Source: Saccharothrix carnea (GTDB lineage: Bacteria; Actinomycetota; Actinomycetes; Mycobacteriales; Pseudonocardiaceae). Taken from it: a stretch of DNA of 64,000 bases. Positions 3,800-47,106 of the stretch are shown one piece after another. Position numbers and translations under genes: made by a program. The stretch is from NCBI RefSeq assembly GCF_003014735.1, contig NZ_PYAX01000009.1:124001-188000 (forward strand), written 5' to 3'. The notes beneath the pieces were generated by a model, which saw nothing but the letters and a program-made list of their open reading frames with translations, searched no databases and had not been told where the DNA came from. The stretch's first letter is position 1. Each line of letters starts with the position of its first letter.

Positions 3800-4636
3800 T
3801 CACTTCGCCGGGAGAAGAGGGTGGTCGCTCGTCGACTGGGGGACGATCCGCGGTCCCACCAGCACGACCGGGCCCGTTCCGCGGCGCAGCAGCCGGTGGC
3901 TGGTAGAGGTGTCCGTGGCGGTCGGGCTGGAGCCGATCACCAGCATCGAGGCGAGCACGGCGTGGCGGGCCAGGCCGGTGGTGGGGCGTGACCTGGCCAT
4001 CCGCACGTCCACCGGCACGGAGGGGTGGTGGACCGCGCAGGCCCGAGTGGCGGACAGGGCGGCTTGGGCGATGTCCGGGACGGCGACCGGCGCGGCGGAG
4101 TCGTCGTCCAGCGTGCAGCACACCACCCGCAGGCCGGTGTTCAGGGCCGCGGCGAGGAGGAACGCGGCGCGCAGCGTGGGCTCGGCCAGGGCGTCGCCGC
4201 TGATGCCGACCGCCACGGGGAGGGTGGACTTGTCGGGGTGTCCCGACCCGACGCCGGCCGGGGCGGCGGTGACCGGGCACCGGGACCGCGCGCTCACGGT
4301 GGAGGCGAGCACGCTGGTGGCGTCCGGGGCGGGTCCGCCCATGACGATCATGCCGGCGGTGTGGGACTCGGCGATCAGAGCGTGTTCGGCGGAGGCGACG
4401 ACCACGCGTGCCGAGACGTCCAAGAGCGGTGACGCCTCCTGCAATCGCCCGGCCAGTTCGTCCAGGCGCCCTCGGGCGTCGTCCACCTCGCCGAGGTCCC
4501 GGCACGCGTGCACCAACCGGAGGCCGCGGCCCCGCTGGAGGGCGTGGCGTGCGGCCCAGCGCGCCCCGGCCAACGACGCCGCGCTGAACGACACCCCGGA
4601 CACCACCGGGGCGGCAGCGCCGAGTCGTGCGGTCAT
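3800..4636 (-). CDS. Tandem-domain universal stress protein (UspA family)
   Basis: A 278-residue protein with two UspA-like halves. The first (about 1-140) has VSGVSFSAASLAGARWAARHA and ends in MIVMGGPA. The second (about 150-278) starts LPVAVGISGDALAEPTLRAAF and ends in MLVIGSSP followed by GTGPVVLVGP. The Val-Gly-x-Ser opening and hydrophobic-G closing strands are the nucleotide-binding frame of the family. The start at 4636 is chosen because GGAGG lies 6-10 bases upstream; an extension to 4843 would add a low-complexity Arg-rich tail through the regulatory region. It is transcribed divergently from the NRPS operon across a 507-base gap. The likely role is stress or dormancy response rather than biosynthesis. 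Confidence 0.8.
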   Translation of the reverse strand: MTARLGAAAPVVSGVSFSAASLAGARWAARHALQRGRGLRLVHACRDLGEVDDARGRLDELAGRLQEASPLLDVSARVVVASAEHALIAESHTAGMIVMGGPAPDATSVLASTVSARSRCPVTAAPAGVGSGHPDKSTLPVAVGISGDALAEPTLRAAFLLAAALNTGLRVVCCTLDDDSAAPVAVPDIAQAALSATRACAVHHPSVPVDVRMARSRPTTGLARHAVLASMLVIGSSPTATDTSTSHRLLRRGTGPVVLVGPRIVPQSTSDHPLLPAK

Positions 4637-5143
4637 CCAGTGCCTCCAGACCCGCCTGGCGGTCGGCCGGCACGTTCGGCACGCGCCGGCGCGGGGAAGT
4701 GGTCCCGACCGGTCGGAACTGTATCGGTCGCGTGAGCTCCCGTGTGCGGAACGCGACAATTGTTTGCGAACGGGTGGTCGGAGTTGTTCGCACATAATTG
4801 CGGAGATCGTCTCGCACGATTGCGAAGGGTATGGCTCAAACATGGCGTTCGAGTGAATCTGTAGGGGTTGCCAGGCTGTTTGGGTAGTTTCTTTACCTCG
4901 ACCATCTATTTATCGTCACGATCGGCGACGTGCCACCCATTTGGCGGTCGCGCGTACGGGGTGCGGGGGCAAACATGAGCCAGGCGATTCGAGCTGACCT
5001 GCGCCGAGTCGACATTCGAGCGGTCGAGGTGAATACGAGGGACCGGGCGAAAAACGTGAACATGTTTCGAATCGAGGGGAGTGGTCAAGTTATGGGGGCC
5101 GAGATGAGTGATGTCCATCAGTGATCGCCACCAGTGAGGAAAC
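4637..5143. promoter_or_regulatory. Divergent regulatory region between stress protein and NRPS operon
   Basis: 507 bases with no convincing gene. It is clearly less GC-rich than its surroundings between about 4740 and 5110, as expected for promoters. It contains TTGCGA-type inverted repeats (see 4788-4825) and an AT-rich patch at 4880-4920. It must hold the promoter of the whole PBP-NRPS-exporter operon, since that operon has no later long gap. A short plus ORF at 4930-5124 lacks family features and is not annotated. Confidence 0.6.
4788..4825. promoter_or_regulatory. Paired TCGCA...TGCGA inverted repeats, putative operator
   Basis: TCGCACGATTGCGA (4812-4825) is a perfect 5-4-5 palindrome. 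TCGCACATAATTGCGGA (4788-4804) is a near copy whose start lies 24 bases upstream, roughly two helical turns. A third half-site, TTTGCGAA, is at 4763-4770. Such phased repeats in a divergent promoter suggest a dimeric repressor or activator site. The cognate protein is not identified. Confidence 0.4.
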
Positions 5144-6484
5144 ATGTCTTCAGATGACCTGTCCGACAGATTCGAGAGAGCAGCGCGGGGCAACGACGTC
5201 ACCGGTGCCCAACTGGCCGTCCTGCGCCAGGGCGAGCTGCGGACGTTCGAGCTAGGCGAACGGGAGCACGGGACCGGGGAACCCATGAGCGGTTCGACCA
5301 AGGTGCCCGTCGGCTCGATCACGAAGACCTTCACCACGACCCTGCTCATGGCCCTCGTCTCAGACGGCGACCTGGACCTCGACGCGCCTGTCGCCGAGTA
5401 CCTGCCGGAGATGCACCGGATCTCGGGTGACCTCGTCGACCTGCTCACCACGCGCCACCTGCTCAGCCACACCGGGGGCCTCGCCGCCGACTACGCCGGG
5501 CCCGCGGAGGCAGACCACTTCCCGCTCGGCGGCTGCTTCCTGGACACCCTCCAGCGGCCGGGCGTCGGCTTCTCGTACTCCAACCTCGGTTACGTCCTCG
5601 CCGGGCACCTGGTCGAAGCGCTGACCGGGATGACCTGGTGGGAGGCCATGCGAGCGATCGTGCTCAAGCCGATGGGGATCACCGCCGCCTCCATCGTGGC
5701 GCCGGACCGCTCGCCATCCGCGCCGTCCGTGGCGACCGGCCACGCGGTGAACCGGGCACGCGGCCTGGTCCGCACGGTCGAGCAGACGCTCGAACCGGCG
5801 GAGGCGCCGGCGGGTGCACTGGCCTTGAGCGCCTCGGACCTGGTCGCGCTCGGCCGGATGCACCTGCGCCCCGAGCACGGCGGAACGGCGGCAGGCCCGG
5901 TGGGCCAGGCGGAATTGGCCGAGATGCGCCGCCCCGTCCCCAGCGCGGACCCGTTCGGCCTGGCCGACGGGTGGGCGCTCGGGCTCGCGTTGTTCCGCGG
6001 CGGAGCCACCACCTGGCTCGGTCACGACGGCATGGCCGATGGCACGTCGTGCTACCTCCGCGTCGATCCGACCGGGGGCACGGTGATCGCGCTCACCACG
6101 AACTCGGGCAGCGGCTCGGCGATGTGGCGGGACCTCTGCGCGGAGCTGCGGCCCACCGGGCTGCACATCGGCGCACACCACGCGCTGACCGGCGCGGAAC
6201 GCCGAACAGCGCCACCGCGTGACTGCGTCGGTGAATACGTCAACGGTGACACCGTGTACTCGGCCGTCATTCGCGGCGATCACGTCTCACTGGTCGTCGA
6301 CGGTGATTCCGCGGCCACTTTGACGCTCTACGAGGGCCTGGTCTTCTCGGTCACGGACGTCACCACCGGCGAACAGGGCTATGCCGGCCGTTTTCTGCGC
6401 AACGCCCGCGACGGTCGGGTGGACCGTATCCAGATCGGCGGCCGGGTGGCGGCCAAGCGGCGACGCGCGCGAGAAGCCGCCTGA
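5144..6484 (+). CDS. Stand-alone PBP/beta-lactamase-fold hydrolase, probable SurE-type peptide cyclase
   Basis: A 446-residue serine hydrolase of the class C beta-lactamase/penicillin-binding-protein fold. Catalytic motifs are Ser58-x-x-Lys61 (SITK), Tyr145-Ser-Asn147 (YSN) and His294-Asp-Gly296 (HDG), with a separate C-terminal beta-rich domain from about residue 355. It has no signal peptide, so it acts in the cytoplasm, unlike true penicillin-binding proteins. AGGA lies 3 bases before the ATG. It is the first gene of the operon, 82 bases before NRPS1. The NRPS ends in an epimerisation domain with no thioesterase, so this protein is the obvious offloading enzyme: PBP-type thioesterases (SurE family) take a D-configured C-terminal residue from the last carrier and close it onto the N-terminal amine. 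An alternative is a D-peptide hydrolase or resistance esterase. Confidence 0.8.
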   Translation: MSSDDLSDRFERAARGNDVTGAQLAVLRQGELRTFELGEREHGTGEPMSGSTKVPVGSITKTFTTTLLMALVSDGDLDLDAPVAEYLPEMHRISGDLVDLLTTRHLLSHTGGLAADYAGPAEADHFPLGGCFLDTLQRPGVGFSYSNLGYVLAGHLVEALTGMTWWEAMRAIVLKPMGITAASIVAPDRSPSAPSVATGHAVNRARGLVRTVEQTLEPAEAPAGALALSASDLVALGRMHLRPEHGGTAAGPVGQAELAEMRRPVPSADPFGLADGWALGLALFRGGATTWLGHDGMADGTSCYLRVDPTGGTVIALTTNSGSGSAMWRDLCAELRPTGLHIGAHHALTGAERRTAPPRDCVGEYVNGDTVYSAVIRGDHVSLVVDGDSAATLTLYEGLVFSVTDVTTGEQGYAGRFLRNARDGRVDRIQIGGRVAAKRRRAREAA

Positions 6485-6566
6485 GATCGGGGCCGTGCCC
6501 GGCCCGCCCAATCGTCACGATCATTTCGCGGTGGGTTCCGCCGCGCCCGAATAGAGTGGACCGCTC

Positions 6567-9500
6567 ATGTCGCCCCATCACGCACCGCCACGGCCCGCCG
6601 GGGACCCGATGATCACCACCGTTCCCGGTCTGTTCGCCGAGTGGGTGCGGCGAACGCCGCGGGCCACCGCGGTGGTCGCCGACGACCTGGCGTTGAGCTA
6701 CGCCGAGCTCGACGACCGCGCCACCCGCCTGGCCCGCCGGCTGACCGGGCTCGGTGTGCGGGTGGAGCGGCCAGTCGGGGTGTTGATGGAGCGCTCGGTC
6801 GAGATGGTGGTCGCCCTGCTGGCTGTGGTGAAGGCGGGCGGGGCGTACCTGCCGCTCGACCTTCGCGCACCGGCCGATCGCCTGCGGCCGGTGCTGGCGG
6901 CGGCGGACGTGCCGGTCCTGCTGACCGACCGCGACCGGGAGGCCGCGGCGACCGCGCTGCACCGGGGGCACGTGGTCGTGGTGGAGGCCGATGACCCACC
7001 GGTGGCGGAGCAGACGGGTGACCTGGTCGGCCCGCACCCCGACACGCTCGCGTACGTGATGCACACGTCGGGTTCGACGGGGGTGCCGAAGGGCGTGGCG
7101 GTGCGGAACCGCGACGTGGTCGCGTTCGCCTCGGACGGGCGGTTCGCCGGCGGTGGTCACGATCGCGTCCTGCTGCACGCCCCGTTGGCGTTCGACGCCT
7201 CGACCTACGAGCTGTGGGTGCCGCTGTTGCGCGGTGGCCGGGTGGTCATCGTCCCACCCGGTGACGTGGACGGGCACGTGCTGCGGCGGATGATCGCCGA
7301 GCACGGGATCACCGGCGTGTTCCTGACCGCGGGACTGTTCCGCATGGTCGCCCAGGACGACCCGGCGTGCCTCGCCGGTGCGCGCGAGGTGTGGACCGGC
7401 GGTGACGTGGTTCCCGCGGGTGCCGTCCGGCGGGTGCTGGAAGCTTGCCCCGGTCTGGTGGTGGTGGACGCCTACGGCCCGACCGAGGTCACGGTGATGG
7501 CCACGGCGCACGCGATGTCGAACGCCCGCGAGGTCCCCGACGTGGTGCCGGTCGGGCGACCGCTGGACGACAAGCGGGTCTACGTGCTGGACGACGACCT
7601 CAGACCCGTGCCGGCCGGTGAACCGGGTGAGCTGTTCGTGGCGGGTGCGGGACTGGCCCGCGGCTACCTCAACCAGCCGGGGCTGACCGCCCAGTGGTTC
7701 CTCGCCGACCCGTTCGCCGGGCCGGGCGAGCGCATGTACCGCACCGGCGACCTCGTGCGGCGCCGTCCCGACGGCGTCTTCGAGTTCATCGGCCGGGCCG
7801 ACGACCAGGTGAAGATCCGCGGCTTCCGGGTCGAGGTCGGCGAGATCGAGGCCGTGTTGGGCGGGCACCCGCGCACCGCGCAGGTCGCCGTGGTGGCACG
7901 CGAGGACCGACCCGGCGTCAAACGCCTCGTCGCGTACGTCGTGCCCACCGACGGCACGCCGCTGCACGCCGGCGAGTTGCGGGCGCTCGCCGTGCGGTCG
8001 TTGCCCGACTACATGGTGCCATCGGCTTTTGTCACCCTGGACCGCCTGCCGTTGAACGCGAACGGGAAGCTCGACCGACGCGCCCTGCCCGCTCCCGGCC
8101 GCGGCGCGTCCGCGGGGCGCACGGCGCCGCGCACCGAGGCGGAGAAGGCGGTCGCGGCGATCTGGGCGGACGTGCTGGGGGAGGAACCCGGCGTCGAGGA
8201 CGACTTCCTGCACCTGGGCGGCGACTCCATCCAGGCGATCCGGGTGACCTCCCGCGTCCGCACGGCGTTCGGCGTCGACCTGTCCTCGCGGGCGGTGTTC
8301 GAAGCGGGGACCGTCGCGGGTCTGGCCGAGCTGCTGGCGGACCGGCTGCCCACCGGCGCGACTGCTCCGATCCCGCGCGCTCCCCGCGATCGGGAGCTGC
8401 CGTTGTCGCCCGCGCAGCAACGGCTGTGGTTCCTGGACGAGCTGAACCCCGGCAGCTCCGAGTACAACACCGGTGTCGGGCTGCGGTTGTCCGGGGCACT
8501 CGACCCCGACGCCCTGCGGACCGCGCTCGACGGGCTGGTCGACCGGCACGAGGCGCTGCGGACGACCTTCGACACGGTCGACGGCCAAGGCGTGCAGGTG
8601 GTGGCGGCACGGGGTGAGCTGCCGTTGCGGGTGGTCGACCTGACCGCCGGCCCGGACACCGCCTTGGACGAGGTGCTGGTCGCGGAGCTGACCGAGCCCT
8701 TCGACCTGCGACGTGGTCCGCTGGCCAGGGCGGTGCTCGTGCGGCTCGCCGACGACGACCACCTGCTGCTGCTCGACCAGCACCACATCGTCACCGACGG
8801 GTGGTCGGTCAGGGTGCTGGTGGACGAGCTGGTCGAGCTGTACCGGACCGCGCTGCGAAGAGCCCCGGCCGCGCTGCCGGAACTCCCGATCCAGTACCCG
8901 GACTTCGCGGTGTGGCAACGCGCACGGCTGGCCGACCCGGCCCTGGACGAGCACCTGGACCACTGGCGGCGCGAACTCGCCGGCCTCGACGCCCTCGACG
9001 TGCCGACCGACCGGCCCCGACCGGCCGTGCGCACCACCTCCGGATCGGTGCACCGCGAGGCGTTGCCCGCGGCACTGGTCGACCGCCTGGCGACGGTGGG
9101 GCAGCGCAACGGCGCCACCCTGTTCATGACCCTCACCGCCGCCGTCCAGGTGCTGCTGTCCACCTACGCCGGCCGCCGTGACGTGGCCGTGGGCACCGCC
9201 ACGTCCGGCCGCGACCGGACCGAACTGGAGAACCTGGTCGGCTTCTTCGTCAACACCGTGGTGATCCGGTCGACGGTGGACCGCTCGCAGACGTTCGGCG
9301 GGTTCCTGGGCGCGGTGCGGGAGACGATGCTCGACGCGTTCGCCCACGACCAGGTGCCGTTCGACCGGCTGGTCGAGGAGCTGCGACCCGAGCGCGACCC
9401 GAGCCGGACACCCCTGGTGCAGGCGCTGGTCCTGCTGCAGCAGGAGGTGGTGCGGCCGACGCGGGTCGACGGGCTGCTGATCACCGAGCACCACCTGCCC

Positions 9501-12500
9501 AGGCCCGCCGCACGCTTCGAGCTGCTGGTGGAGTTCTGGCCGAAGGACGACTCGCTGGACGTCTCGGTCGAGTACAACACCGACCTGTTCGACGCGAGCA
9601 CGATCGAGCGGATGACGGGCCACCTGCGGGTGCTGCTCGACGCGATCGCGACCGACCCGGACCGGCCCCTCGCCGAGCTGTCGCTGCTCGGTCCGGCCGA
9701 ACGGCGGCAAGTGCTGGAGGTCTGGAACGACACCGGTCACGAGCCGGCGGCGACGGTCCCCGACCTGTTCGCGGAGCAGGTGCGGCGCACGCCGGACGCC
9801 ACCGCGGTGATCGCCGCCGGGACGGCGCTGACCTACGCCGAGCTGGACGCCCGCGCCAACCGGCTGGCACACCGGCTGCTCGGGCTCGGCGTGCGCGTCG
9901 AGGACCCGGTCGGCCTGCTGGTGGGCCGCTCGGTCGACCTCGTCGTCGCCGAGCTGGCCGTGTTGAAGGCGGGTGGGGCGTACGTGCCGCTGGACACCAG
10001 ATCGCCGGCCGAGCGGTTGCGCGTGCTGCTGGCCGAGGCCGGTGCGCGGGTCCTGCTCACCGACCGGGTGTGGCTGGACACCGCCACCGGTGTCCGCAGC
10101 GGACACGTCGTGCGGGTGGACGCAGTGGACCTGGCCGACGAACCGGCCACCGACGCCGGTGTCACGACCCACCCGGACAACCTCGCCTACGTCATGCACA
10201 CCTCCGGCTCGACCGGGGTGCCCAAGGGCGTGGCGGTGCGGCACCGCGACGTCGCCGCGCTCGCCCGTGACCGGCGGTTCCGCGGCGGCGCGCACGACCG
10301 GGTGCTGCTGCACTCGCCGCCCGCCTTCGACGCCACCACGTACGAGCTGTGGGTGCCGTTGCTCAACGGTGGTCAGGTCGTCGTGGCCCCACCCGGTGAC
10401 CTCGACGTCGACGTGCTGCGCCGCACGATCGGCGAGCACGGCGTGACCGCGTTGTGGCTGACCGCGGGGTTGTTCCGGGCGTTCGCCCAGGACGACCCGG
10501 CGTGCTTCGCCGGTGTGCGCGAGGTGTGGACCGGCGGTGACGTGGTCCCGCCGGCCGCCGTGCGGCGCGTGCTCGAAGCCTGTCCGGGGCTGACCGTGGT
10601 GGACGGGTACGGCCCCACCGAGACCACGACGTTCGCGGCCTCGTACCCGATGTCGGACGTCCACGACGTCCCGGACGTGGTGCCGATCGGCCGACCGCTC
10701 GACGGCATGCGCGTCTACGTGCTCGACGAGGAACTGGCCCCGACGCCGGTCGGGGTGGCCGGTGAGCTGTTCATCGCCGGCGCGGGCGTGGCCCGCGGCT
10801 ACCTGGGCCGGCCCGGCCTGACCGCGCAGCGGTTCCTGCCGGACCCGTTCGGTCGGGTGGGTGAGCGGATGTACCGCACCGGGGACGTGGCGAGGTGGCG
10901 ACCGGACGGCACGGTCGGGTTCGTCGGCCGCACCGACGACCAGGTCAAGATCCGCGGCTTCCGGATCGAACCGGGCGAGGTCGACACCGCGCTGACGCGG
11001 CACGGCGGCGTCGCCCAGGCGGTCACCGTCGTGCGGCCGGACGACACCGGCCGCAAACGCCTCGTCACCTACGTGACACCGGTGTCCGAGTCGCTCGACG
11101 CGGCGTCGCTGCGCGAGTTCCTCGTCCGCACGCTGCCGGACTACCTCGTGCCCTCGGCGTTCGTCACCGTGGAGGCGCTGCCGCTGGACGCGAACGGCAA
11201 GGTCGACCGGCGTGCCCTGCCCGCACCCGACTGGGGCGCCGGCGTGACCGGCGGCTACGTGCCGCCGGCCGCGGGCGCGGAGGCGGAGCTCGCCCGGATC
11301 TGGGCGGAACTGCTGAACGTGGAGCGGGTCGGCGCCCAGGACGACTTCTTCGAGCTCGGCGGCGACTCCATCCTCGGCATCCAGGTGGTGTCGCGGGCGC
11401 GCGCGGCCGGGCTGGCCCTCACCCCTGGCGACCTGTTCCGGCACCCGACGGTGGCCGGCCTCGTCGCGGCCGTGGTCGAGCCCGGAGCGGTCACCGCCGA
11501 ACAGGGCGAGGTGACCGGCGACGTGCCGCTCACCCCGATCCAGCGCTGGCTGTTCGACACGAACACCGTGCGGCCGGAGCACTTCAACCAGTCGGTGCTC
11601 GCCGAACTGGCCGGACAGCCCGACGAACAGGCGCTCCGGCGGGCGCTGCGGGCGCTGCTGGAGCACCACGACGCCCTGCGGATGCGCTTCACGCGAACCG
11701 AGGACGGGTGGCGGCAGCACAACGCACCGGTCGAGTCACCGGAGGTGCTGGAACGCCACGACCTGTCCGCGGTGGAGCCGGAGGCCCAGGACACGGCGGT
11801 CGAGGCGTTCAAGGCCCGCACGCACGCGAACATCGACCTCGCCACCGGTCCACTGCTCAAGGCGGTGCTGTTGGACCTGGGTGACAGGCGGCGACCGTTG
11901 CTGTTCCTCGCCGTGCACCACCTCGTCGTGGACGGCGTCTCGTGGCGAATCCTGCTGGAAGACCTGGCCACCGCCTACGGCCAGGCGACGCGCGGCGAGG
12001 CGGTCCGGCTCGGCGCGAAGACGACGTCGTTCCGCGACTGGGCACGACGGTTCACCGCCTTCACCGAGGCGGGCGGCTTCGACGACGAACTCGACCACTG
12101 GACGACGACGACCGAGGCGGACCCGTCGTTGCCGGTCGACCACCAGGGCACCGCCACCGCGGGCTCGACCCGTGTGCTGACCTTGAGGCTCGACCAGGAC
12201 GTCACCAGGGCGCTGTTGCAGGACGTGCCCGGCGTGTACCGGACACAGGTCAACGACGTGCTGCTGAGCGCGCTGGGACGGGTTCTCGGCACGTGGACCG
12301 GCCGCGACCGCGTGCTGGTCGACCTGGAGGGGCACGGCCGCGAAGAGCTGCTGGACGACGTGGACCTCTCCCGCACGGTCGGCTGGTTCACCTCGATGTT
12401 CCCCGTCGCACTGGACATCCCGGGCAGCCACTGGGGCGACGTGCTCAAGGCGGTCAAGGAGCAGCTGCGCGCGGTGCCGCGCCGGGGGCTCGGGCACGGC

Positions 12501-15500
12501 GCGTTGCGCGCGACCGCCCTGTCCGGTGCACCCAGCCCTCGGATCAGCTTCAACTACCTCGGCCGGCTGGACTGGTCGACCGCCGGCGGTGAGCTGTTCC
12601 ACGCCATGCGTGGCGGTCTGGAGCTGGACACCGCCGCCGACGCGCCCCGGCCACACCTGTTGGACGTGGTGGGCGCGGTGGAACACGGCTGCCTCGAACT
12701 GAGCTGGCACTACAGCGACCGGGTGCACGACGAGGGCACTGTGCGGTGGTTGGCCGAAGCGATGGCTGGCGCGTTGCGGGAGGTGGTGGCGCACTGCGCC
12801 GCACCCGGTGTGGGTGGGCGGACGCCGTCTGACTTCCCGTTGGCGGGGTTGGACCAGGGTGCGGTGGACCGTCTCGTCGGTGACGGGCGTGGCGTGGAGG
12901 ACGTCTACCCGCTGACCCCGATGCAGGCCGGGATGGTGTTCCACCACCTCGTCGGCACGTCCACGTCCGGGGCCTACTTCAACCAGGTGCGGTTCCGGCT
13001 GTCCGGTGTGGCCGATCCGCGGGCGTTGGCCGCGGCGTGGCAGCGGGTCGTGGACCGCACCCCCGTGCTGCGCGCCGAAATCGTCTGGGAAGGCCTGCCC
13101 GAACCGCTCCAGGTGGTGCGCCGGGACGTCACCCTGCCGGTGCTGCACCTCGACTGGACCGCGCTGCCCGGGACCGACCGGCTGGAGGCGCTGCGGGAAT
13201 TCCTGGAACACGACCGCGCCGTGGGCCTCGACCTCGGTGCCGCCCCGTTGACCAGGCTGGCCGTCGCTGCGCTCGGTGACGGCGAAGTGTTGGTGGTGTG
13301 GACGTTCCACCACGTGCTGCTGGACGGCTGGAGCGCGGCCCGGGTCTTCACCGAGGTGTGCGAGCACTACGCCACGATCACCCGGGGTCGGCCGATCACG
13401 CTTCCCGCGCGCCGTCCGTTCCGGGACTACCTGAGCTGGCTCGACCACCAGGACCAGACGGAGGCCGAGCGGTACTGGCGGCGGGTGCTCGCCGGGTTCG
13501 ACTCGCCGACCGCGCTGCCGTTCGACCGGCAGCCGGTCGAGGCGCACCGGGCCGAGTCGGGCGCGACGGTCGGCGTCATGCTGACGGCTGCGCTGACCGA
13601 CCGGCTGCGCGACTTCAGCCGGCGCAACGGGCTGACCGTGAACACGGTCCTGCAAGGCGTGTGGGCACTGCTCCTGTCCCGTTACAGCGGTGAGCGGGAC
13701 GTCGTCTTCGGCGCCACCGTCTCGGGCCGGCCCGCCGACCTGGCCGGTGTCGAGTCGATGGTGGGCATGTTCATCAACACCGTGCCCACCCGGATCACCG
13801 TGCCGCACGACGTCGACGTGCTGTCGTGGCTGCGCCGGATCCAGCGCGAGCAGGCCGAGACCCGCCGCTTCGACCACGTCCCGCTGACCCGGGTGCGGGG
13901 CTGGAGCGACCTGCCGGGCCGGGGTGCCCTGTTCGACAGCATCCTGGTGTTCGAGAACTACCCGTTCGACGCCGACGCGCCTGCCTCGCACGGGCTGCGG
14001 ATGCACGACGTGCGGGCGCACGAGCCGACCAACTACCCGCTCACCGTCATGGCGACGCCCGGCCCGTCGCTGTCCATCGCGGTCGACTACGACCCGACCC
14101 TGTTCGACGAGCGGACAGTCCAGCGGCTGTCCCGGCACCTGCGGGTGCTCCTGGAGCAGATCCCGGACACCCCGGACCGGCCGGTCTCGGAGTTGTCGCT
14201 GCTGGATGCCGCCGAACGGCACCAGGTGCTGGTGGCGTGGAACGACACCGACCACGACCTGCCCGCAGGCGCGCTGCCCGACCTGTTCCACCGGCAGGTC
14301 GACCGGTCGCCGCACGCCACCGCGTTGGTCGCGGACGGCGTGCGGCTCGACTACGCCGAGCTGGACACCAGGGCGAACCGGCTCGCGCACCGGTTGATCC
14401 GGCTCGGTGTCCGGGTCGAGGATCGCGTGGCGGTGCTGGTGCGGCGGTCGGTGGAGCTGGTCGTCGCGGAGCTGGCCGTGGTGAAGGCCGGTGGCGCGTA
14501 CGTGCCGCTCGACACGAGGTCGCCCGCCGAACGGATGCGGACGGTGCTGGCCGAGGCCGGAGTGTCCGTGCTGCTCACCGACGCTACGTGGCAGGACACC
14601 GCCCGCACCATCCACAGTGGGCACACGGTGCCTGTGGACGTGCCGCTGGAGGACGAGCCGGGTGAGCGGCCCGAGGTGCGGTGGCACCCGGAGAACCTCG
14701 CCTACGTCATGTACACCTCCGGCTCGACCGGCAAGCCGAAGGGTGTCGCGGTGCGCCACCGGGACGTTGTGGCGTTGGCCTCCGACCGGCGGTTCCGGGG
14801 CGGCGGGCACGACCGGGTGCTGCTGCACTCGGCACCGGCCTTCGACGCCACCACGTACGAGCTGTGGGTGCCGCTGCTCAACGGCGGGCAGGTCGTCGTC
14901 GCCCCACCGGGGGACCTCGACGGCGAGGTGCTGCGGCGCGTGGTGACCGAGCACGGCGTGACCGGGTTGTGGCTGACCGCCGGGTTGTTCCGGTTGGTGG
15001 CGCAGGACGCGCCGGGCTGCCTGGCCGGTTTGCGCGAGGTCTGGACCGGCGGCGAGGTCGTTCCCGCGGCGGCGGTGCGCCGCGTGCTCGCCGCCTGCCC
15101 CGGCCTGGTGGTCGCCGACGGTTACGGGCCCACCGAGACCACGACCTTCGCCACCCAGCGGACCGTGGACGCGGTGGACGAGGTGCCCGACGTGGTGCCG
15201 ATCGGTCGGCCGCTGGACAACATGCGGGTCTACGTGCTGGACGACGATCTGCGGCCGGTGCCGGTCGGCGTCGCGGGCGAGCTGTTCATCGCCGGTGCGG
15301 GCGTGGCCCGCGGCTACCTGGGCCGGCCGGGCCTGACCGCCCAGCGCTTCGTGCCGGACCCGTTCGGCCGGGCGGGGGAGCGGATGTACCGCACCGGCGA
15401 CCTGGTCCGGTGGACCGCGGCGGGCGAGGTGGACTTCGTCGGGCGCGCCGACGACCAGGTGAAGATCCGCGGCTTCCGGATCGAGCTCGGCGAGGTGGAA

Positions 15501-18500
15501 ACCGCCCTGCTGCGCCACGACGACGTGTCGGAGGCCGTCGTCGTGCTCCGCGAGCACGACGGGCGCAAACGGCTGGTGGCCTACTTCGTGCCCGCCGGCG
15601 ACGAGCCCTCGCACACCGTGCTGCGGGGTTCCCTCGGGCACGTGCTGCCGGACTACATGGTGCCCTCGGCGCTGGTGGCGTTGGACCGGCTGCCGCTCAA
15701 CCGCAACGGGAAGGTCGACCGCCACGCACTGCCCGAGCCGGACTGGGGCACCACCGGCACCTCCTACGTCGCACCGCGCACCGCGGTCGAGCGCACGCTG
15801 GTGTCGATCTGGGCGCAGGTGCTCGGGGTCGACCGGGTCGGCATCCAGGACGACTTCTTCGAGCTGGGCGGCGACTCGATCATCAGCATCCAGGTGGTCT
15901 CGCGGGCCCGGCAGGCCGGTCTCGGGCTGATGCCCGGGGACCTCTTCGCGCATCCCACCGTGGCCGCGTTGGCCGCCGCCGCGCCGGTGGACGGCGTGCC
16001 CGACACGGTGCCGCAGGGACCGGTCAGCGGCGAGGTCCCGTTGACGCCGATCCAGCACTGGTTCCTCGACCCCGGACCGGCTCGGCCGGAGCACTTCGAC
16101 CAGTCCGTGCTGCTGGAGTTCACCGGCGAACCGGACCACGAGGCGCTGCGACGGGCCTTGGACGCCCTGTTGGCCCACCACGACGCGCTGCGCACGCGCT
16201 TCGAGCGCACCGAAAGCGGGTGGCGGCAGCACATCCCGCCGGTCGAGCCGGTCGACGTGCTGGAGGTGCGCGACCTGTCCGGCGCGAGCGACCGCGAGCG
16301 GCAGCTCGACGCGATCGTCGGTGCCGTCCGCCGCGGCTTCGACCTCGGTCACGGACCGCTGGTCAAGGCCGTGCTGGTCGACCTCGGTCCGGCCGGGTGG
16401 ACGTTGTTCCTCGCCGTGCACCACCTGGTCGTGGACGGGGTGTCCTGGCGGATTCTGCTGGAGGACCTCGACACCGCGTACCGGCAGGCCCTCGACGGCG
16501 AGCCGGCCCGGTTGCCGGACCGGACCACGTCGATCCGGGACTGGGCGCACCGGCTGGCCGACCACACCGCGGCCGGCGGCTTCGCCGACGAGGTCGACCA
16601 CTGGAACGCGGTGGCGGCCGGCGTCGACCCGACCGTGCCCGTCGACCGGCAGGGCGTCAACACCGTCGACACCGTGCGGACCGTCACGGCCGGGTTGGAC
16701 GAGCCGCGCACGCGGGCGTTGTTGCAGGACGTGCCGGGGGTCTACCGGACGCGGGTCGACGACGTGCTGCTCGCCGCGCTGGCCCGGGTCCTCGGCCGGT
16801 GGACCGGTCGGGACCGGGTGCTGGTCGAGCTGGAGGGGCACGGCCGCGAGGAGGAAGTCCTGCCCGGCGTCGACCTGTCGCGCACGGTCGGCTGGTTCAC
16901 CACGGTGTTCCCGGTCGCCCTGGACGTGCCCGAGCCCGGTGATTGGGGCACTGCGCTGAAGTCGACCAAGGAACTCCTCCGGGCCGTGCCCCGGCGAGGA
17001 ATCGGGTACGGCGCGGTGCGCCACCTGACCCGGACGCTGGATGAGCGGCCGGACCCGAAGGTGAGCTTCAACTACCTCGGGCGGTTCGACTGGTCCGCGT
17101 CCTCCCACGGGACCGCGTTCCGGGTGGTCGGCGGTCTGCGTTCGGACGCCGCACCGGACATGCCCCGGCCACACCTGCTGGACGTGGTGGGCGCGGTCGA
17201 GGGCAACCGCCTGCAATTCACCTGGTACTACAGCGAGCAGGTGCACGATGAGGCCACCGTGCGGCGGCTGGCCGAGGAGTTGGCGGATGCGCTGAGCGAG
17301 GTGGTGGCGCACTGCGCCGCACCCGGCGCGGGTGGGCGGACGCCGTCGGACTTCCCGTTGGCGGGGTTGGACCAGGGTGCGGTGGACCGTCTCGTCGGTG
17401 ACGGGCGTGGCGTGGAGGACGTCTACCCGCTGACCCCGATGCAGGCCGGGATGCTGTTCCACAGCCTGTCCGAGGGCGACCAGCGGCTCTACTTCGAGCA
17501 GCTGGCTTTCGTGCTGGAGGGCGTCACCGACTCGACCGTGTTGGCCAGGGCTTGGCGCGAGGTGGTCGAGCGGACGTCGGTGCTGCGCAGCCGGGTGGTC
17601 TGGGAGGGCGTCGACGAGCCGTTGCAGGTGGTGTGCCGCGACGTGGCCGTGCCGATCCGCGAGCTCGACTGGACCGGGCTGTCGCCCGACGCCCGCGACC
17701 GGGAGCTGCGGGACCTGCTCGACCGCGACCGGGCAGACGGCGTCGACCTGACCGAGGCGCCGCTGCTGCGGCTGGTGTCGGCCCGCCTGTCCGACACCGA
17801 GGTCCAGGTGGTGTGGACGTTCCACCACGTGCTGCTGGACGGCTGGAGCGTCTTCCAGGTGCTGTCCGACGTCTTCGCCTGCCACGCCGCGCTCGCCGGC
17901 GGCCGCCGTCCCGAGCCCACCGGGCGACGCCCCTTCGGCGACTACCTGAAGTGGCTCGCCGAGCAGGACCCGCGCGAGGCCGAGGGCCACTGGCGCCGGG
18001 TGCTCGACGGGTTCACGACGCCGACCCCGCTGCCCCTCGACCGGCCGGCGGACCGCTCCCACACCACCCGTTCGACCGAGTGGGTGATCACCGAGCTGTC
18101 CGATGTGGACACTGCGCGGCTGCGAGAGTTCGCCCAGCGCAACGGCTTGACGCTGAACGCCGTCGTGCAGGGCGGCTGGGCGTTGACGCTCGCCCGGTGC
18201 AGCGGCCGGCACGACGTGTGCTTCGGCTCCACGGTGTCCGGCCGACCGGCCGACCTGCCGGGCGCGGAGGCGATCACGGGGATCTTCATCAACACCGTGC
18301 CGGTCCGGGTGGACGTCGCCGACGACCAGCCCGTGGCGGCGTGGCTGCGTCAGCTCCAGTCGGCGCAGGCGGACGCCAGGCGGTTCGACTTCGTCCCCCT
18401 CGGCGAGCTGCAGGGCTGGAGCGAGGTGCCGAGCGGGGTCAGCCTGTTCGACAGCATCCTGGTGTTCGAGAACTACCCGGTCAACGACGAGGCGGCGTCG

Positions 18501-20564
18501 GCCCACGGCCTGGCGATGCGCGACCTGCATGCCGTCGAGACCACGAACTACCCGCTCAGCGTCGGTGTCCGGCCGGGCGAACGGCTGTCCATCGCCCTGG
18601 GCTACGACCCGGCGCTGTTCGACGCGGCGACGGTCGAGCGGATGGCGGATCGCCTGGCCCGAGCGCTGGACGGACTGGCCGCCGGCCCGGACCGCCGCCT
18701 CGGCGACGTCGAGGTCGTGGGCGAGGCCGAGCTGCTGCGCCTGGTGGTGGAGCACAACGCCACCCGCCACCCGGTGCCCGAGGGCACGGTGGCGAGCCTG
18801 TTCGCCGAGCAGGCCGACCGGGCACCCGACGCCACCGCCGTGGTGGCGGACGGGGTGTCGCTGACCTACGCCGAGCTGGAGGTGCGGGCCAACCGGTTGG
18901 CGCACCGGCTGGTCGACCTGGGGGTCCGCCCGGAGCACTGCGTCGGCGTGCTCCTGGAACGATCCGCCGACCTGGTCGTCGCGGTGCTGGCGGTGACCAA
19001 GGCGGGGGGTGCGTACCTGCCGCTGGACGTCCGGGCGCCTGCTGAGCGGATGCGGCTGATGCTCGACCAGGCGCGCACGACGGTGCTGCTCACCGACGAG
19101 AGGTGGCGGGGCACCGCGAGCGAGGTCCACGCCGGGCACGTCGTGCTGGTGGACGCGCACGGGGGGCGCGACGACCGGCCGGTGGTCGCCCTGCACCCGG
19201 ACAACCTGGCCTACGTCGAGTTCACCTCCGGGTCCACCGGTGCGCCCAAGGGTGTGGCCGTGCGGCACCGGGACGTGGTGGCGTTCGCGTTCGACCGACG
19301 CTTCGACGCGCACCGCAACGTGCTCGTGCACTCGCCGTTGGCGTTCGACGCCTCGACCTACGAGCTGTGGGTGCCGCTGCTGCGCGGCGGCCGGGTGGTG
19401 CTCGCGCCCCCGACCGACCTCGACGCCGACCTGGTGCGGCGGCTGATCGGCGAGCACGGCGTCGACGTCGTGTTCCTGACCGCCGGGCTGTTCCGGGTCA
19501 TCGCCCAGGACTCGCCCGACTGCCTGGCCGGGCTCGCCGAGGTGTGGACCGGCGGCGAGGTCGTACCCGCGTCGGCGATCCGCCGTGTGATGGAGACGTG
19601 TCCCGGCCTAGTGGTGGTGGACGTCTATGGACCGACCGAGACGACGGCCTTCGCCACCTGCCACCCGATGTCCGGCCTCGGCGAGGTGCCCGACGTGGTG
19701 CCCATCGGCGCACCGCTGGACAACATGCGTGCCTACGTCCTCGACGACCGGTTGCGCCCGGTGCCGGTCGGCGTGCCGGGTGAACTCCACCTCGCCGGCG
19801 CGGGGCTGGCCCGCGGCTACCTCGACCGGCCCGGCCTGACCGCCGAGCGGTTCCTGGCCGACCCCTTCGGAGAGCCGGGGGAGCGGATGTACCGCACCGG
19901 GGACGTCGTGCGGTGGCTGCCCGGTGGCGTGCTGGAGTTCGCCGGTCGCACCGACGACCAGGTCAAGCTGCGCGGCTTCCGGATCGAGCTCGGCGAGGTC
20001 GAAGCGGTGCTGGGCCGCCACCCCGACGTCGGCGGGCTGGTGGTGATGGCGAGGGAGGACGTCCCCGGCTCCAAGCGGCTCGTGGCCTACGTCGTGCCCG
20101 CCGGCGGGGCGCGGGCGCCCGACGCCGAGGAGGTGGCGGCCTTCGCGGCGCGGTCCCTGCCCGACTACATGGTCCCGTCGGCGTTCGTGGTGCTGGACCG
20201 GTTGCCGTTGAAGTCCAACGGGAAGGTGGACCGGAGGGCACTGCCCGCGCCGGTGGACGCGTTGCCCGCGACGGCGTACGTGGCGCCCCGGACCGACACC
20301 GAGCGGGTGCTCGCCGCGATCTGGGTGGAAGCGCTCGGCGCGGACCGGGTGGGCGTCGAGGACGACTTCTTCGCCCTCGGCGGCGACTCCATGCGCAGCC
20401 TGCTGGTCACCTCGCGCGGCCGGGCGGCGTTCGACGTGCCGCTGACCCCGCACGACGTGCTGACCAGTCGCACGGTTTCCGCGCTGGCGCGGGTGGTCGA
20501 GGAGAAGGTCCTGATCGAACTGGAACGAGTCGCCTTCGGTGACGACGCCGGCACGCACGTCTGA
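6567..20564 (+). CDS. Non-ribosomal peptide synthetase 1: modules 1-4 (A-T, C-A-T-E, C-A-T-E, C-A-T)
   Basis: A 4665-residue synthetase. Domains in order: A1 (about 20-510), T1 (Ser554), C2 (HHIVTDG at 739), A2, T2 (Ser1601), E2 (HHLVVDG at 1784), C3 (HHVLLDG at 2248), A3, T3 (Ser3104), E3 (HHLVVDG at 3285), C4 (HHVLLDG at 3753), A4 and T4 (Ser4608). All carriers have LGGDS and all A domains have the NGK lysine. Both E domains keep EGHGRE and RTVGWFT. There is no condensation or formylation domain before A1, so the first residue should keep a free amine. C2 is LCL-type; C3 and C4 are DCL-type, matching the E domains before them. It ends in a carrier plus a short acidic tail, to be continued by NRPS2. 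An alternative start is the ATG at 6609, which has a better-placed GGGGA. Confidence 0.95.
6609..8350 (+). other. NRPS module 1: A-T, initiating L-amino acid, hydrophobic
   Basis: Pocket residues read by eye against the GrsA positions are D-A-Y-F-W-G-A-V-M-K, an aliphatic/hydrophobic-type pocket (Leu-, Ile- or Val-like; not assignable with certainty). No C or E domain is present, so this residue is L and has a free amine. Confidence 0.6.
8397..12800 (+). other. NRPS module 2: C(LCL)-A-T-E, predicted D-Val
   Basis: Pocket D-A-Y-W-W-G-G-T-F-K, a recognised Val-type signature. The C domain has [11 protein letters not shown] and HHIVTDGWS (LCL type). The E domain follows the carrier, so the residue is epimerised. 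Confidence 0.75.
12781..12935 (+). repeat. Near-identical E-C linker, copy 1 (pairs with 17299-17453)
   Basis: 155 bases spanning the end of E2 and start of C3 match 17299-17453 with only three mismatches seen. This is much closer than the flanking homologous domains and indicates recent duplication or gene conversion between modules 3 and 4. Confidence 0.85.
12895..17320 (+). other. NRPS module 3: C(DCL)-A-T-E, predicted D-Val
   Basis: Pocket D-A-Y-W-W-G-G-T-F-K, identical to module 2. The C domain has [10 protein letters not shown] and HHVLLDGWS (DCL type), as expected after an E domain. E3 has an intact HHLVVDG. Confidence 0.75.
17299..17453 (+). repeat. Near-identical E-C linker, copy 2 (pairs with 12781-12935)
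   Basis: The partner of 12781-12935, at the end of E3 and start of C4. Similarity falls immediately after the MQAGM codons, where the two C domains diverge. Confidence 0.85.
17415..20564 (+). other. NRPS module 4: C(DCL)-A-T, hydrophobic L-residue
   Basis: Pocket D-A-Y-F-W-G-V-A-F-K, hydrophobic and closest in feel to Ile/Val-type pockets, but not a signature I can assign. No E domain is present. The carrier serine lies in [10 protein letters not shown], the only carrier lacking Ile after the serine. Confidence 0.6.
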
Positions 20565-20577
20565 GGAGAAGAAGACC

Positions 20578-40310
<19,733 letters not shown>

Positions 40311-40314
<4 letters not shown>

Positions 40315-41564
40315 CCGCTTCGACGGTCCCGCTGTCGCGCAACCGCGACTACCGGCTCGTGTGGATCGGCCAGGCCCTGTCGGAGGCGGGCTCCAGCGCG
40401 TCCGCCATCGCGTTCCCGCTGCTGGTGCTGGTGCTGACCGGATCTCCCGTGCTGTCCGGGCTCGTGCTGTCCGCCGGCGCCGCGGCGCAACTGCTCGCCG
40501 GGCTGCCCGCGGGAGCCCTGGTCGACCGGTGGGACCGCAAGAAGGTGATGCTGATCTGCGAAGCGGTACAAGCTCTCGCGGTGGGCAGTGTCGTCCCGGC
40601 CCTGTGGTGGGGCTTCGCGAGCGTGCCCTACATCATCGCCGTCGTGGTCGTCCTCGGCGTCTGCCGGTCGCTGTGCGAACCAGCCGAGGAGGCGAGCCTG
40701 CCCGCGATCGTGCCCGCCGACCAGTTGGCCGGCGCGGTGGCGATGAACTCGGCCCGCGGCTACCTGGGACAGCTGCTGGGCACCGCGCTCGGAGGCTTCC
40801 TGTTCGCGGCACGCCGCTGGCTGCCGTTCGCGGCGGAGGCCGCGGCGCACGTTGCGGCGTTCGTCGCGCTGTTCTTCGTCCGACTGCCGGCGCGGCAGCG
40901 CGAGCCCGTGCCGAAGGGCAACCTCCACCGCGAGGTGCTGGACGGCCTGCGCTGGATCGGGGGACGACCCCTGATCCGGGTGATCGCGGTGTGTGCCATC
41001 GGCCTCAACCTGTTCTTCCAGGCGTTCTACCTGCTCGTGATCGCGCTGGCGCAGCAGCGGGGTGTCCCGACCGGGCAGATCGGCGTCATGGCCGCGATGT
41101 TCGGCGCGGGGGGAATCCTGGGCGCCCTCGCCGCGCCGAGGCTGCACCGGCTGGTCAGGCCGTACGTGTCCGTCGTCGGGGTCTTCTGGGTGATCACCTG
41201 CCTGATCCCGCCGGCGATCTTCGCCGACAACGGCTACCTGATGGGCGCCTTGTTCGCCGCCATGGCGTTCGTCGCGCCGACCGCCAACACCACCATCACC
41301 ACCTACCAGCTGCTGCTGACCCCCGACGAGTTGCGCGGCAGGTTGAGCAGCGTCATGAGCGTGGCCCTCGGCACGGCCGCCATCGCCGGACCGGCGCTGG
41401 GCGGCCTGCTCGTCGAAGTCCTCCCCGGCGACCAGGCGATCCTCACGTGCGCGGCGGGGATCGCGCTTCTCAGCCTGTTCGCGACTTTCAACCCGACACT
41501 GCGCCAGTTCTCCGCGCACGATCCCGCCGATCAAGGCACGACGACCGATCAGGGCGGGCGGTGA
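40311..41564 (+). CDS. MFS-family exporter of the peptide operon
   Basis: A 417-residue, highly hydrophobic membrane protein with about twelve predicted helices, starting [22 protein letters not shown]. The loop after helix 2-3 carries [13 protein letters not shown], the MFS signature for this group, and a second half-signature [15 protein letters not shown] follows helix 10. This pattern fits MFS_3/EntS-like proton-driven exporters of siderophores and small peptides. The GTG start overlaps the NRPS2 stop by four bases, so it is translationally coupled and almost certainly exports the NRPS product, giving both delivery and self-resistance. The gene ends in a stem-loop shared with the convergent epoxide hydrolase. 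Confidence 0.9.
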
Positions 41565-41602: not shown

Positions 41603-42739
41603 TCATCGCACCAGTCGGAAGAAGTCGCGCACCTCTTCGGCGAACAGTTCGGGTTGCTCCCACGCACCGAAGTGCCCGCCGCGGTCCGGTTCGTTCCAGT
41701 AGCGGATGTCGGTGTAGCGCTTGGCCGCCCAGCGGCGCGACGGGCGTGGTACCTCTTTGGGGAAGACGGTGCACCCGGTGGGTACCGGGACGGTGTCGTC
41801 GGTGCTCTTGGCGAACCACTCGCCGACCTGGCGGAAGCTCTCCCAGTACAGCCGGGCCGAGGAAGCAGCGGTGCGGGTCAACCAGTACAGGGTGATGTCG
41901 TCCAGCATCGCGTCGCGGGTCAGGACGGTTTCCGGGACCCCGCCGCTGTCGGTCCAGGAGGCGAACTTCTCCACGATCCACGCGCACAGGCCGGCCGGCG
42001 AGTCGGTGAGGGCGTAACCCACCGTCTGGGGTTTCGTCGTCATCTGCTCGGCATAGCCGGATTCCTGGGCCGCGGCACGACGCAGGTCGACGAGCGCGGC
42101 CTCCTCCGCCGGGGTCAGGTCGTCGAAGGTGCCGGGGTCCGGCGCGGCGATCGGCGGCATGACGTGGATGCCGACCAGTTCGCCGGTGTCCTGCTGCCCC
42201 ATGCTGGTGGTGACGCTGGTGCCCCAGTCACTGCCCTGCGCGCCGTAGCGCTGGTAGCCGAGCCGCGCCATCAGCTCCCGCCACGCGGCGGCGATCCGTT
42301 GCACCGTCCAGCCGGGTTCGGTGGGGCGTCCGCTGAAGCCGTAGCCGGGAAGTGAAGGGATCACCAGGTGGAAGGCGTCGTCCGGGTCGTCGGGCTCGGT
42401 CAGCAGGGGGACGACCTTCTCGAACTCCAGCACCGAGCCGGGCCAGCCGTGGGTGAGGATGAGCGGCACCGCCGACCGGTGCGGGGAGCGGACGTGCAGG
42501 AAGTGGATGCCGACGCCGTCGATGTCCGTGCGGAACTGGGGCAGTGCGTTGAGTCGCCGTTCGGTGGCCCGCCAGTCGTACTCGGTGGCCCAGTAGTGGC
42601 ACAATTCCTCCAGGTACGCCAACGGCACGCCCTGCGTCCAGTCGGACACCGGCTCGGCGTCCGGCCACCGGGTGCGCGACAGCCGGGCTCGCAGGTCGAT
42701 CAGCTCGTCGTCCGGGATCTCGATGCGGAACGGAATCAC
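41603..42739 (-). CDS. Epoxide hydrolase with EHN domain (alpha/beta-hydrolase fold)
   Basis: A 378-residue protein. The first 110 residues are the EHN lid domain (IPDDELIDLRARLSRTRWPD, then DWRATERRLN). The alpha/beta-hydrolase core has the oxyanion segment THGWPGS (96-102), the nucleophile Asp171 in GSDWGT and the catalytic His356 in GGHFGAWE. It opens epoxides to diols through an alkyl-enzyme ester. The GTG start has a GAGAGG upstream. It lies convergent to the NRPS operon, so it is not co-transcribed with it. A tailoring role is possible, but no epoxidase is present in the cluster; general detoxification is equally likely. Confidence 0.88.
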   Translation of the reverse strand: MIPFRIEIPDDELIDLRARLSRTRWPDAEPVSDWTQGVPLAYLEELCHYWATEYDWRATERRLNALPQFRTDIDGVGIHFLHVRSPHRSAVPLILTHGWPGSVLEFEKVVPLLTEPDDPDDAFHLVIPSLPGYGFSGRPTEPGWTVQRIAAAWRELMARLGYQRYGAQGSDWGTSVTTSMGQQDTGELVGIHVMPPIAAPDPGTFDDLTPAEEAALVDLRRAAAQESGYAEQMTTKPQTVGYALTDSPAGLCAWIVEKFASWTDSGGVPETVLTRDAMLDDITLYWLTRTAASSARLYWESFRQVGEWFAKSTDDTVPVPTGCTVFPKEVPRPSRRWAAKRYTDIRYWNEPDRGGHFGAWEQPELFAEEVRDFFRLVR

Positions 42740-43071: not shown

Positions 43072-44334
43072 ATGGGGGAGCTGGAGGGACGTCCGGACTC
43101 GGTCCGGAACACCGTGGCGGGTTCGGTCTCCGGGCCGGTGGTGCAGGCCCGTGAGGTGCACGGCGACGTCACCTTGAATCACCATCAGCACCTTCACCGG
43201 GAAAGCCCTGATCCTGCGGCGCAGGTCGCAGTGGTGACCAGACTCGTCCCTGGCTCAGCCCAGGCAGGCGGGATGTTCTCCGGGCGCGGCGCAGAGGCCG
43301 AGCGGATATTGACCGCACTGGCTCCCGACAGCGGTGACCTCACCGATGGGACGGGGCCGGTGGTGGTGTCGGCGATCGCGGGGATGGGCGGAGTCGGGAA
43401 GACCGCCTTGGCCCGACACTGCGCGGTGCGGGCGGCAGCGCGGGGCTGGTTTCCGGGTGGCGTGTTCTGGGTCGACCTGCAGGGCTACAGCGGCGAAGGC
43501 ATGGTCACCGCGGGTGCGGTGCTCTCTCCGCTGCTACGCCAGCTCGGCGTCGAAGCCGACCACGTCCCCGACCGGACCGCCGACCAGGCGGCCGTCTACG
43601 ACCAGACGCTGCGCGACCTGGCGGAGGCCGGTCGGGCGGTGCTGCTGGTGCTGGACAACGCCTCCACCGTCGACCAGTTGCACGGCCTGCTGCCCGCTCT
43701 CGGGGACCACCGGGCACTGATCACCACTCGCGACACCCTCGCCCTGCCCGGCGCCCGTCGCTTGCTGCTGGACGTCCTGCCCATCGGTGACGCGGTCACG
43801 GTCCTGGACCGGGCGCTACGGCGACAGGACGGCGACGACGACCGTGTCACCACCGACCCGACGGGAGCCACACGCCTGGCAGAGGTATGCGGCGGGCTTC
43901 CACTGGCAGTGCTGATCGTCGCCGGTCTGCTCGCGGACGAACCCCACCTCACCTCCGGCACCCTGGCCGAGCAGCTCGCCGGGACGAGCACGGCAGGGTT
44001 TACCCACGGCGAGACCCGGCTGGCCACCGTCTTCAACGCGTCCTACTACCGGCTGCGCGACCGCGACCCCGACGCGGCGCAGTTGCTGAGGATGCTCGCC
44101 CTGGCGCCAGGCGTAGACATCGACACCGTCGCGGCTGCGGCCTTGGCCGCCGCGTCGCCCGACCGGGTCCGAACTCTGCTGCGCGTGCTAAGACAGGTTC
44201 ACCTGATCACCACCGACACGGTCGACAGGTGGCGTGGTAGCCCCATGTTGGGTTCTCCTGTGCCAGGCGCAGTACCAGGAGCCGGATCGAGTGGACGGTC
44301 CGTGGACGACCAGGCCGCCTGGGACGGGATCTGA
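43072..44334 (+). pseudogene. STAND (NB-ARC) ATPase gene cut short by transposon sequence
   Basis: The first 386 or so residues are a good STAND protein. They comprise an N-terminal GPVVQAREVHGDVTL motif seen in many actinobacterial members, the P-loop GMGGVGKT (104-111), a VLLVLDN Walker B, a GLPLAV motif and the start of the winged-helix region. After TTDTVDRW (about 44232) the frame passes into antisense transposase sequence (44235-44569) and stops at 44334. The usual RMHDLLR-type continuation and any TPR or WD repeat sensor domain are missing. AGGAGG lies 7 bases before the ATG, so the truncated product could be made, but it should lack its sensor. The intact protein would have been a regulatory or defence NTPase. 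Confidence 0.75.
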
Positions 44335-44569
44335 GCGCGTGGCGGCGTTTCATGAAGTCCTGGTGCCACCGAGGCACTGTCTCCGGACGCACCAGCAGTC
44401 GGAGCCGACGAAGCGTATCGACCGGAAGTCGGTGCAGCAGTGCCGTGAGGAACGCCCGGTCGTCGGGGGAGAACCGTGGACGCCGGATTACCGGCTTGGA
44501 ATCCGACTCCCGGTACAACCGGACAGCGCGAGCCCTCAACTCGTCGGGGTACTTCTTCGGTGGTGCCAC
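44235..44569 (-). mobile_element. Chimeric transposase remnant (IS3-type OrfA start fused to integrase-type N-terminus)
   Basis: The minus-strand ORF begins MAPPKKYPDELRARAVRLY and continues to KPVIRR, which is how IS3-family OrfA proteins start. It then switches in frame to RPRFSPDDRAFLTALLHRLP and [14 protein letters not shown] up to ENPTWGY, which is the N-terminal half of an IS481/integrase-core transposase. The DDE domain is absent because the sequence ends at the junction with the truncated STAND gene. This is a composite scar of at least two elements. Confidence 0.7.
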
Positions 44570-44630
44570 GGACGACTCCTTCAGGCCCTATCGGACCATG
44601 CCTGGAAAGCCGCCGGGCCACCGGGGGAGC

Positions 44631-47030: not shown

Positions 47031-47106
47031 CCTGCCAGCAGGCGCTCCCTGGACGTGACATCCTGCCGTGCTGCGTGACTGCCACTGTCGCCTACTATTG
47101 CAGCAG

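Follow-up and report, generated by a model that had tools for sequence, protein, structure and literature searches.

A four-gene row of Saccharothrix carnea with nine NRPS modules and a stand-alone PBP-type thioesterase, and the cyclic nonapeptide predicted from it

We analysed a stretch of 64,000 nucleotides of Saccharothrix carnea (assembly GCF_003014735.1, contig NZ_PYAX01000009.1, positions 124,001 to 188,000; hereafter the window) from a genome of 8.9 Mb in 40 contigs. At positions 5144-41564 it contains a tight head-to-tail row of four + strand genes, coding for a penicillin-binding protein (PBP)-type thioesterase, two non-ribosomal peptide synthetases (NRPS1 and NRPS2) and an exporter of the major facilitator superfamily (MFS). 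According to the best reading of this row, which we hold with considerable confidence, the predicted product is a dicationic nonapeptide cyclised head to tail, from D-Val9 to the L-configured residue 1.

The first gene encodes a PBP-type thioesterase of the SurE family

The row opens with a gene (5144..6484, + strand) for a protein of 446 amino acids (aa), in which an earlier note on this DNA had recognized a PBP/beta-lactamase fold. Indeed, the protein is a member of PF00144 in Pfam and has the motifs S58-I-T-K61, Y145-S-N147 and H294-D-G296; by eye, a signal-peptide-like N-terminus was not seen in it. Its assignment as a stand-alone PBP-type thioesterase draws on the open reading frame (ORF), Pfam, structure matches, a tree and a profile. 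The best match among solved structures is SurE (6ksu, E 8.3e-72, residues 5-435), followed by Ulm16 (8fek, E 1.6e-70, in the two stretches 10-184 and 217-437), each with 38% identity; the next solved match is IS11 (E 5.3e-25, residues 23-328). In a tree of 46 rows, the 446-aa protein, SurE, Ulm16 and 34 further NRPS-side rows are split from nine others with a support of 100/100, and the grouping with SurE-type enzymes expected in the earlier note was thus borne out. For the outgroup, nine rows were used, all trimmed to the match: five proteins of PF00144 from the same genome, three homologs from the genus that have no adenylation (A) domain nearby, and an IS11 fragment. The set included no named D-aminopeptidase, and the tree program warned that some long branches meet. 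A first tree had 58 rows, after which three long-branched rows were excluded.

The catalytic residues are strongly conserved: S58, K61, Y145, H294 and G296 are identical in all 46 rows of the protein family (the window protein, SurE and Ulm16 among them), and N147 is found in 41 of the 46. Gly235, which shapes the C-terminal pocket of SurE (PMC11735501), aligns with Gly224 of the 446-aa protein and is likewise kept in 46/46 rows. A profile of the C-terminal (lipocalin) part of the family matched 4/4 family loci, which had themselves gone into the profile, and 0/12 other loci of the fold (untrimmed), pointing to a lipocalin-like domain after the PBP domain of the 446-aa protein. As is characteristic of the SurE family, the gene stands alone beside an NRPS without a cis thioesterase. 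In fact, no thioesterase domain was detected in the 25 open frames scanned with Pfam, a part of the window's frames that includes the cyclase and MFS genes.

Nine modules are predicted to build a chain with an L start and a D end

Motif and hidden Markov model (HMM) scans both gave nine modules: NRPS1 (6567..20564) has four and NRPS2 (20578..40314) five, with both genes on the + strand and delimited by their ORFs. With condensation (C), thiolation (T) and epimerisation (E) domains, the layout reads A1-T1 / C2-A2-T2-E2 / C3-A3-T3-E3 / C4-A4-T4 for NRPS1 and C5-A5-T5-E5 / C6-A6-T6 / C7-A7-T7-E7 / C8-A8-T8 / C9-A9-T9-E9 for NRPS2. E domains are thus present in modules 2, 3, 5, 7 and 9 and absent from modules 1, 4, 6 and 8, and the loading module (A1, 6615..8090, + strand, pocket code DAYFWGAVM) consists of A-T alone, without C or E. 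For NRPS2, the earlier note had described a protein that lacks a thioesterase and stops inside E9; the former was confirmed and E is the last domain, but E9 (38989..40287, + strand, with the motifs HHLVIDGVS and EGHGRE) is a complete terminal epimerisation domain directly followed by the stop codon. The first start of NRPS2 in the ORF list is GTG 20539; the more likely start is ATG 20578, located behind GAGGAGAAG.

The C domains divide into two subtypes in models that were built from the window's own domains, these having been sorted by start motifs whose meaning we presume: C3, C4, C6 and C8, each of which comes after an E domain, share one subtype, which we take to be D-C-L, and C2, C5, C7 and C9 share the other, presumably L-C-L. 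Since E positions and C subtypes agree, the order L-D-D-L-D-L-D-L-D is supported from two sides. As judged from domain order, the substrate would therefore have an L residue at its N-terminus and a D residue at its C-terminus. The nine modules do not go back to recent internal duplication, an origin that we rejected because the best internal DNA repeat of more than 300 bases is only 75.5% identical.

As to the residues themselves, we take the pocket codes to denote Val at positions 2, 3 and 9, Thr at 5, Asn at 7, an Ile-like residue at 4 and perhaps at 1, and basic residues at 6 and 8. The strings of the three basic-type pocket codes were not found in the papers searched, and the residue assignments are therefore our own. 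The sequence tentatively derived from them is cyclo[Ile/Leu-like - D-Val - D-Val - Ile-like - D-(allo-)Thr - basic - D-Asn - basic - D-Val], positions 1, 4, 6 and 8 being the most tentative, with the basic residues probably ornithine or similar. Position 239 of A6 and A8 is L in the MAFFT alignment and E when no gap is placed; an E at this position would suit a basic substrate. Such a product would be a dicationic, amphipathic macrolactam joined from D-Val9 to residue 1.

Related clusters share the bare start and the terminal E domain

A cyclase match at E 1e-40 or better is present in 22 of 25 genomes of the genus, and one at 1e-50 or better in 130 of 390 genomes at family level; when genome contigs were scanned with the cyclase, a single distant locus, in Bacillota, came up. 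We extracted 38 PBP-linked clusters, window included. The 4+5 layout with the cyclase first and E last is found in the window and ten orthologs (56-68% cyclase identity, three genus groups), in all of which the domain order gives the L first residue without a starter C domain, the D last residue and the chain length of nine that had been claimed for the window. Among the remaining 27 clusters, six have nine modules, six have ten, eight have eight, with at least one module lacking an A domain, and four have six; the others are one with four modules and the cyclase fused in cis, an ambiguous one (G142) and one cut by a contig end (G214). Nine modules are thus found in 17/38 clusters and ten in 6/38, and we rejected the idea that nine modules are exceptional; this count is biased, as the window and its deliberately sought orthologs account for 11 of the 17. 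In all 36 countable clusters the line begins with A-T, neither C nor E being detected in this module, and in 34 of them it finishes in E. Homologs of the MFS exporter (56-74% identical) come after the last E domain in 20/20 related clusters, two of which end at the edge of the fetched stretch.

Two other arrangements were observed in this sample. In four genomes (G091, G383, G145 and G221; L116-L133 in part, L160-L163) the cyclase gene has a five-module NRPS gene on either side, which makes ten modules in total, with nearly the same codes in all four; the second NRPS of G221 has a frame break. At L152 (G215:C2:1427192-1428376), a PBP-type domain is fused in cis to the NRPS end after a Gly-type module, resembling biffamycin's embedded SurE domain, which was termed unique by its authors (PMC13285481).

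Head-to-tail closure is favored over hydrolysis and side-chain closure

In the proposed pathway, NRPS1 would load an L-amino acid with a free amine on its bare A-T start and build the tetrapeptide L-D-D-L. The chain would then move to NRPS2, which would add D, L, D, L and D residues (configurations following from E and C types), and after E9 it would sit on T9 as a D-terminal thioester. By analogy with SurE and Ulm16, the PBP-type thioesterase would take the chain onto Ser58, aided by Lys61, Tyr145 and His294, and attack by the amine of residue 1 would close the ring. The MFS protein presumably exports the product.

Three other fates of the chain or roles of the protein were weighed. That the enzyme mainly hydrolyses, leaving a linear nonapeptide ending in D-Val as the natural product, we regard as unlikely: the fold does include hydrolases, but tree, C-terminal domain and pocket of the 446-aa protein match those of cyclising members, and a free L amine at residue 1 together with D at residue 9 is the very pairing that SurE cyclises. 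Closure by a side chain, i.e. a lariat formed through the D-Thr5 hydroxyl or the amino group of one of the basic residues, could draw on the nucleophilic side chains that the codes, as we take them, predict at positions 5, 6 and 8; with the bare start kept in all ten orthologs, it seems very unlikely. Finally, the 446-aa protein might be a D-aminopeptidase, carboxypeptidase or esterase that merely adjoins the NRPS genes, e.g. for self-protection. PF00144 is indeed broad, with 30 matches in this genome including the protein itself, and the NCBIfam matches of the 446-aa protein include class C beta-lactamases, AmpH and a D-aminopeptidase, each far under its cut-off. However, the match to SurE and the 100/100 grouping with SurE and Ulm16, on which we rejected a D-peptidase or esterase, speak against such a neighbor; also, of the loci fetched from the genus, 26/26 with E 4.9e-66 or better, among them that of the window, have an A-domain motif no more than 1.5 kb away, versus 0/4 at 1e-41 to 1e-45. 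This last alternative we consider extremely unlikely.

Several observations nevertheless count against the cyclic nonapeptide. In one SurE study, a decapeptidyl substrate gave mostly linear surugamide F (PMC7459860), which favors hydrolysis. A second PBP-type thioesterase, 52% identical, is encoded in the same genome (G000:C4:20854-22101) and could act in trans. An MbtH gene was not seen in the row; four are present elsewhere in the genome. Two of the 36 countable clusters lack a terminal E domain, namely G215, where a Gly-type module is fused to the cyclase, and G019, where E was not found. The ten orthologs include two (G238, L090-L092; G244, L093-L095) with frame breaks inside A domains of an otherwise intact NRPS2, reflecting either assembly error or decay. 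Three loci outside the 38 clusters (L072, L073 and L076; three genomes, one genus group) show a C domain rather than a bare A domain beside the cyclase gene; the first module of these lines may sit in another gene. Taken together, we still consider head-to-tail closure of a nonapeptide the best reading.

Adenylation cores differ on a conserved chassis

Comparison of the window with four orthologs (G020, G016, G382 and G243) showed 58-77% identity for the 13 C and E domains and 65-78% for A1, A2, A4, A6 and A8, but only 45-50% for A3, A5, A7 and A9, while all nine A domains are 71-84% identical between G020 and G382. The drop in identity lies in the A core: it sets in roughly 80 residues ahead of motif A3 and extends some 160 residues past it, with higher values restored before the A domain ends. 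The pocket codes of these four domains, all on the + strand, differ as well: A3 (14262..15734) has a code that we take to be Val-type and that is Thr-type in the ten orthologs; A5 (22048..23532) has the presumed Thr-type code DFWNIGMVH, against DAYWWGGTF or DAYFWGVTF in the ten orthologs; A7 (29689..31116) has the presumed Asn-type code DLTKVGEVG, against DAWSAGLVD in the same ten; and A9 (37213..38694) has DAYWWGGTF, which we take to be Val-type, where the ten orthologs have an Asn-type code.

The cluster of G219, a single outside reference on which every branch assignment below rests, allowed these changes to be placed. A3, A5 and A7 of the window are 63-68% identical to those of G219 and their counterparts in G020 and G382 only 45-47%; positions 3, 5 and 7 therefore appear to have changed on the branch of the orthologs. 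For A9 the picture is reversed (window 43%, G020 and G382 65-66%), which would place the switch of the ring-closing residue from an Asn-type to a Val-type code on the branch of the window. At A6 and A8, both the window and the orthologs diverge from G219 (45-47%). In G219 itself, module 3 has no E domain though a D-C-L-type C domain comes next. In a comparison of 26 A domains (from the window, G020 and G219), A9 of the window was most similar to A2 of the same cluster (74%), and its A7 to A9 of G020 (69%).

A sister PBP-type row was noticed in the same genome and in others (L059/L046-L048, G000:C4:20854 on; G016 C64, G020 C1:8165889, G024, G248, G030, G213 and G080), in which module 2 is C-T-E without an A core. 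The sister cyclase is present in 22/25 genus genomes, and the row layout was checked in four of these and in four other family genomes; the four genus clusters examined have eight modules, one without an A domain. In module 2 of 6/8 rows, 98-113 aa of A_sub-like sequence are left, without the NGK lysine motif (by eye, all six), and in 2/8 only 25-27 aa.

These data can be drawn together in a wider view, for and against which our confidence is evenly divided: the cyclase/NRPS/NRPS/MFS row would be a family-wide chassis for peptide diversification whose C, T and E domains and cyclase are kept and whose A cores are swapped, the one for the ring-closing residue included, with one cyclase lineage tolerating the change from D-Asn to D-Val; the sister row, with its near-core cyclase in the genus, would make an octapeptide despite the loss of the A core from module 2, which an A domain from elsewhere would have to load. 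With their conserved chassis and four differing A cores, the clusters constitute a natural experiment on A exchanges and on the ring-closing residues that a PBP-type cyclase accepts.

Surroundings of the row

The fourth gene, for the MFS exporter (40311..41564, + strand, Pfam), overlaps at its start with the stop of NRPS2 by 4 bases. To the left, the row is flanked by genes for an amidohydrolase (2119-3528) and a Usp-type protein (3800-4843), and to the right by an epoxide hydrolase gene on the - strand (41603-42739), which is the nearest alpha/beta hydrolase. None of the window's left and right neighbor genes was found in the fetched stretches of the 20 related clusters (E 1e-20), a result of little weight for the left side, since on that side several stretches end about 0.5 kb from the cyclase gene. 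The four genes for thioesterase, NRPS, NRPS and MFS exporter make up the conserved unit seen.

At 43072-47123, a P-loop protein on the + strand (by eye) and a TPR/NB-ARC protein on the - strand (Pfam), of the STAND regulator kind, adjoin the row. Further downstream, 60752-62131 encodes an Ada/AlkA fusion that combines metal-binding Ada, an AraC-type helix-turn-helix and AlkA N-terminal domains in one protein.

Comparison with known systems

Neither the enzyme nor the peptide length is new, since offloading of 8- and 10-mers by SurE, cyclisation of a nonapeptide and clusters of 4-10 modules have already been reported. The suggestion in the earlier note that the length might set this product apart is therefore not supported. 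SurE natively offloads octapeptides and a decapeptide, longer chains also work, and its G235L variant cyclised a nonapeptide with C-terminal Gly at 99% (PMC11735501). It needs a C-terminal D residue, preferring neutral, aliphatic or aromatic ones, and tolerates most L residues at the N-terminus (PMC11735501). A survey of 1421 genomes identified 166 organisms with SurE-type clusters, which had 4-10 modules and formed 15 subnetworks (PMC7459860). The compound itself is probably new: no natural nonapeptide assigned to a PBP-type cyclase was found in the open-licence papers covered, mostly through listings and passages. The text of the paper on xinghamide A, a cyclic nonapeptide from Streptomyces, does not contain the terms 'NRPS', 'gene cluster' or 'thioesterase'. 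The pachycephalamides and demiguisin (lipopentapeptides and a hexapeptide) are, as far as the available passages tell, unrelated. Thus the row does not extend the known size range of PBP-type cyclases, but offers a small, well-defined and probably complete set of genes for a dicationic macrolactam of nine residues that has yet to be seen, together with ten natural variants.

Among the known systems, the row resembles that of SurE (surugamide, 6ksu) in its stand-alone PBP-type thioesterase with a lipocalin-like part, the same catalytic residues and the pocket glycine, as well as in NRPSs that lack a thioesterase and end in E, with an L start and a D end (PMC11735501, PMC7459860). SurE, however, works with two assembly lines, one of 8 and one of 10 modules, within an 18-module cluster that makes octa- and decapeptides (PMC7459860), whereas the window has one nine-module line in two proteins. 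Ulm16 (ulleungmycin, 8fek) is a homolog over nearly the whole length with the same motifs, but its substrate is a hexapeptide (PMC11735501). The surveyed SurE-linked clusters share the combination of a cyclase with an NRPS without thioesterase (PMC7459860). Finally, WolJ and DsaJ (wollamide, desotamide) are likewise PBP-type offloading enzymes, and A-core recombination on a conserved chassis has been documented for the wollamide cluster; the products of these systems have six residues, and one A domain was exchanged there, with the donor named (PMC9205934), whereas in the window four of nine A domains differ.
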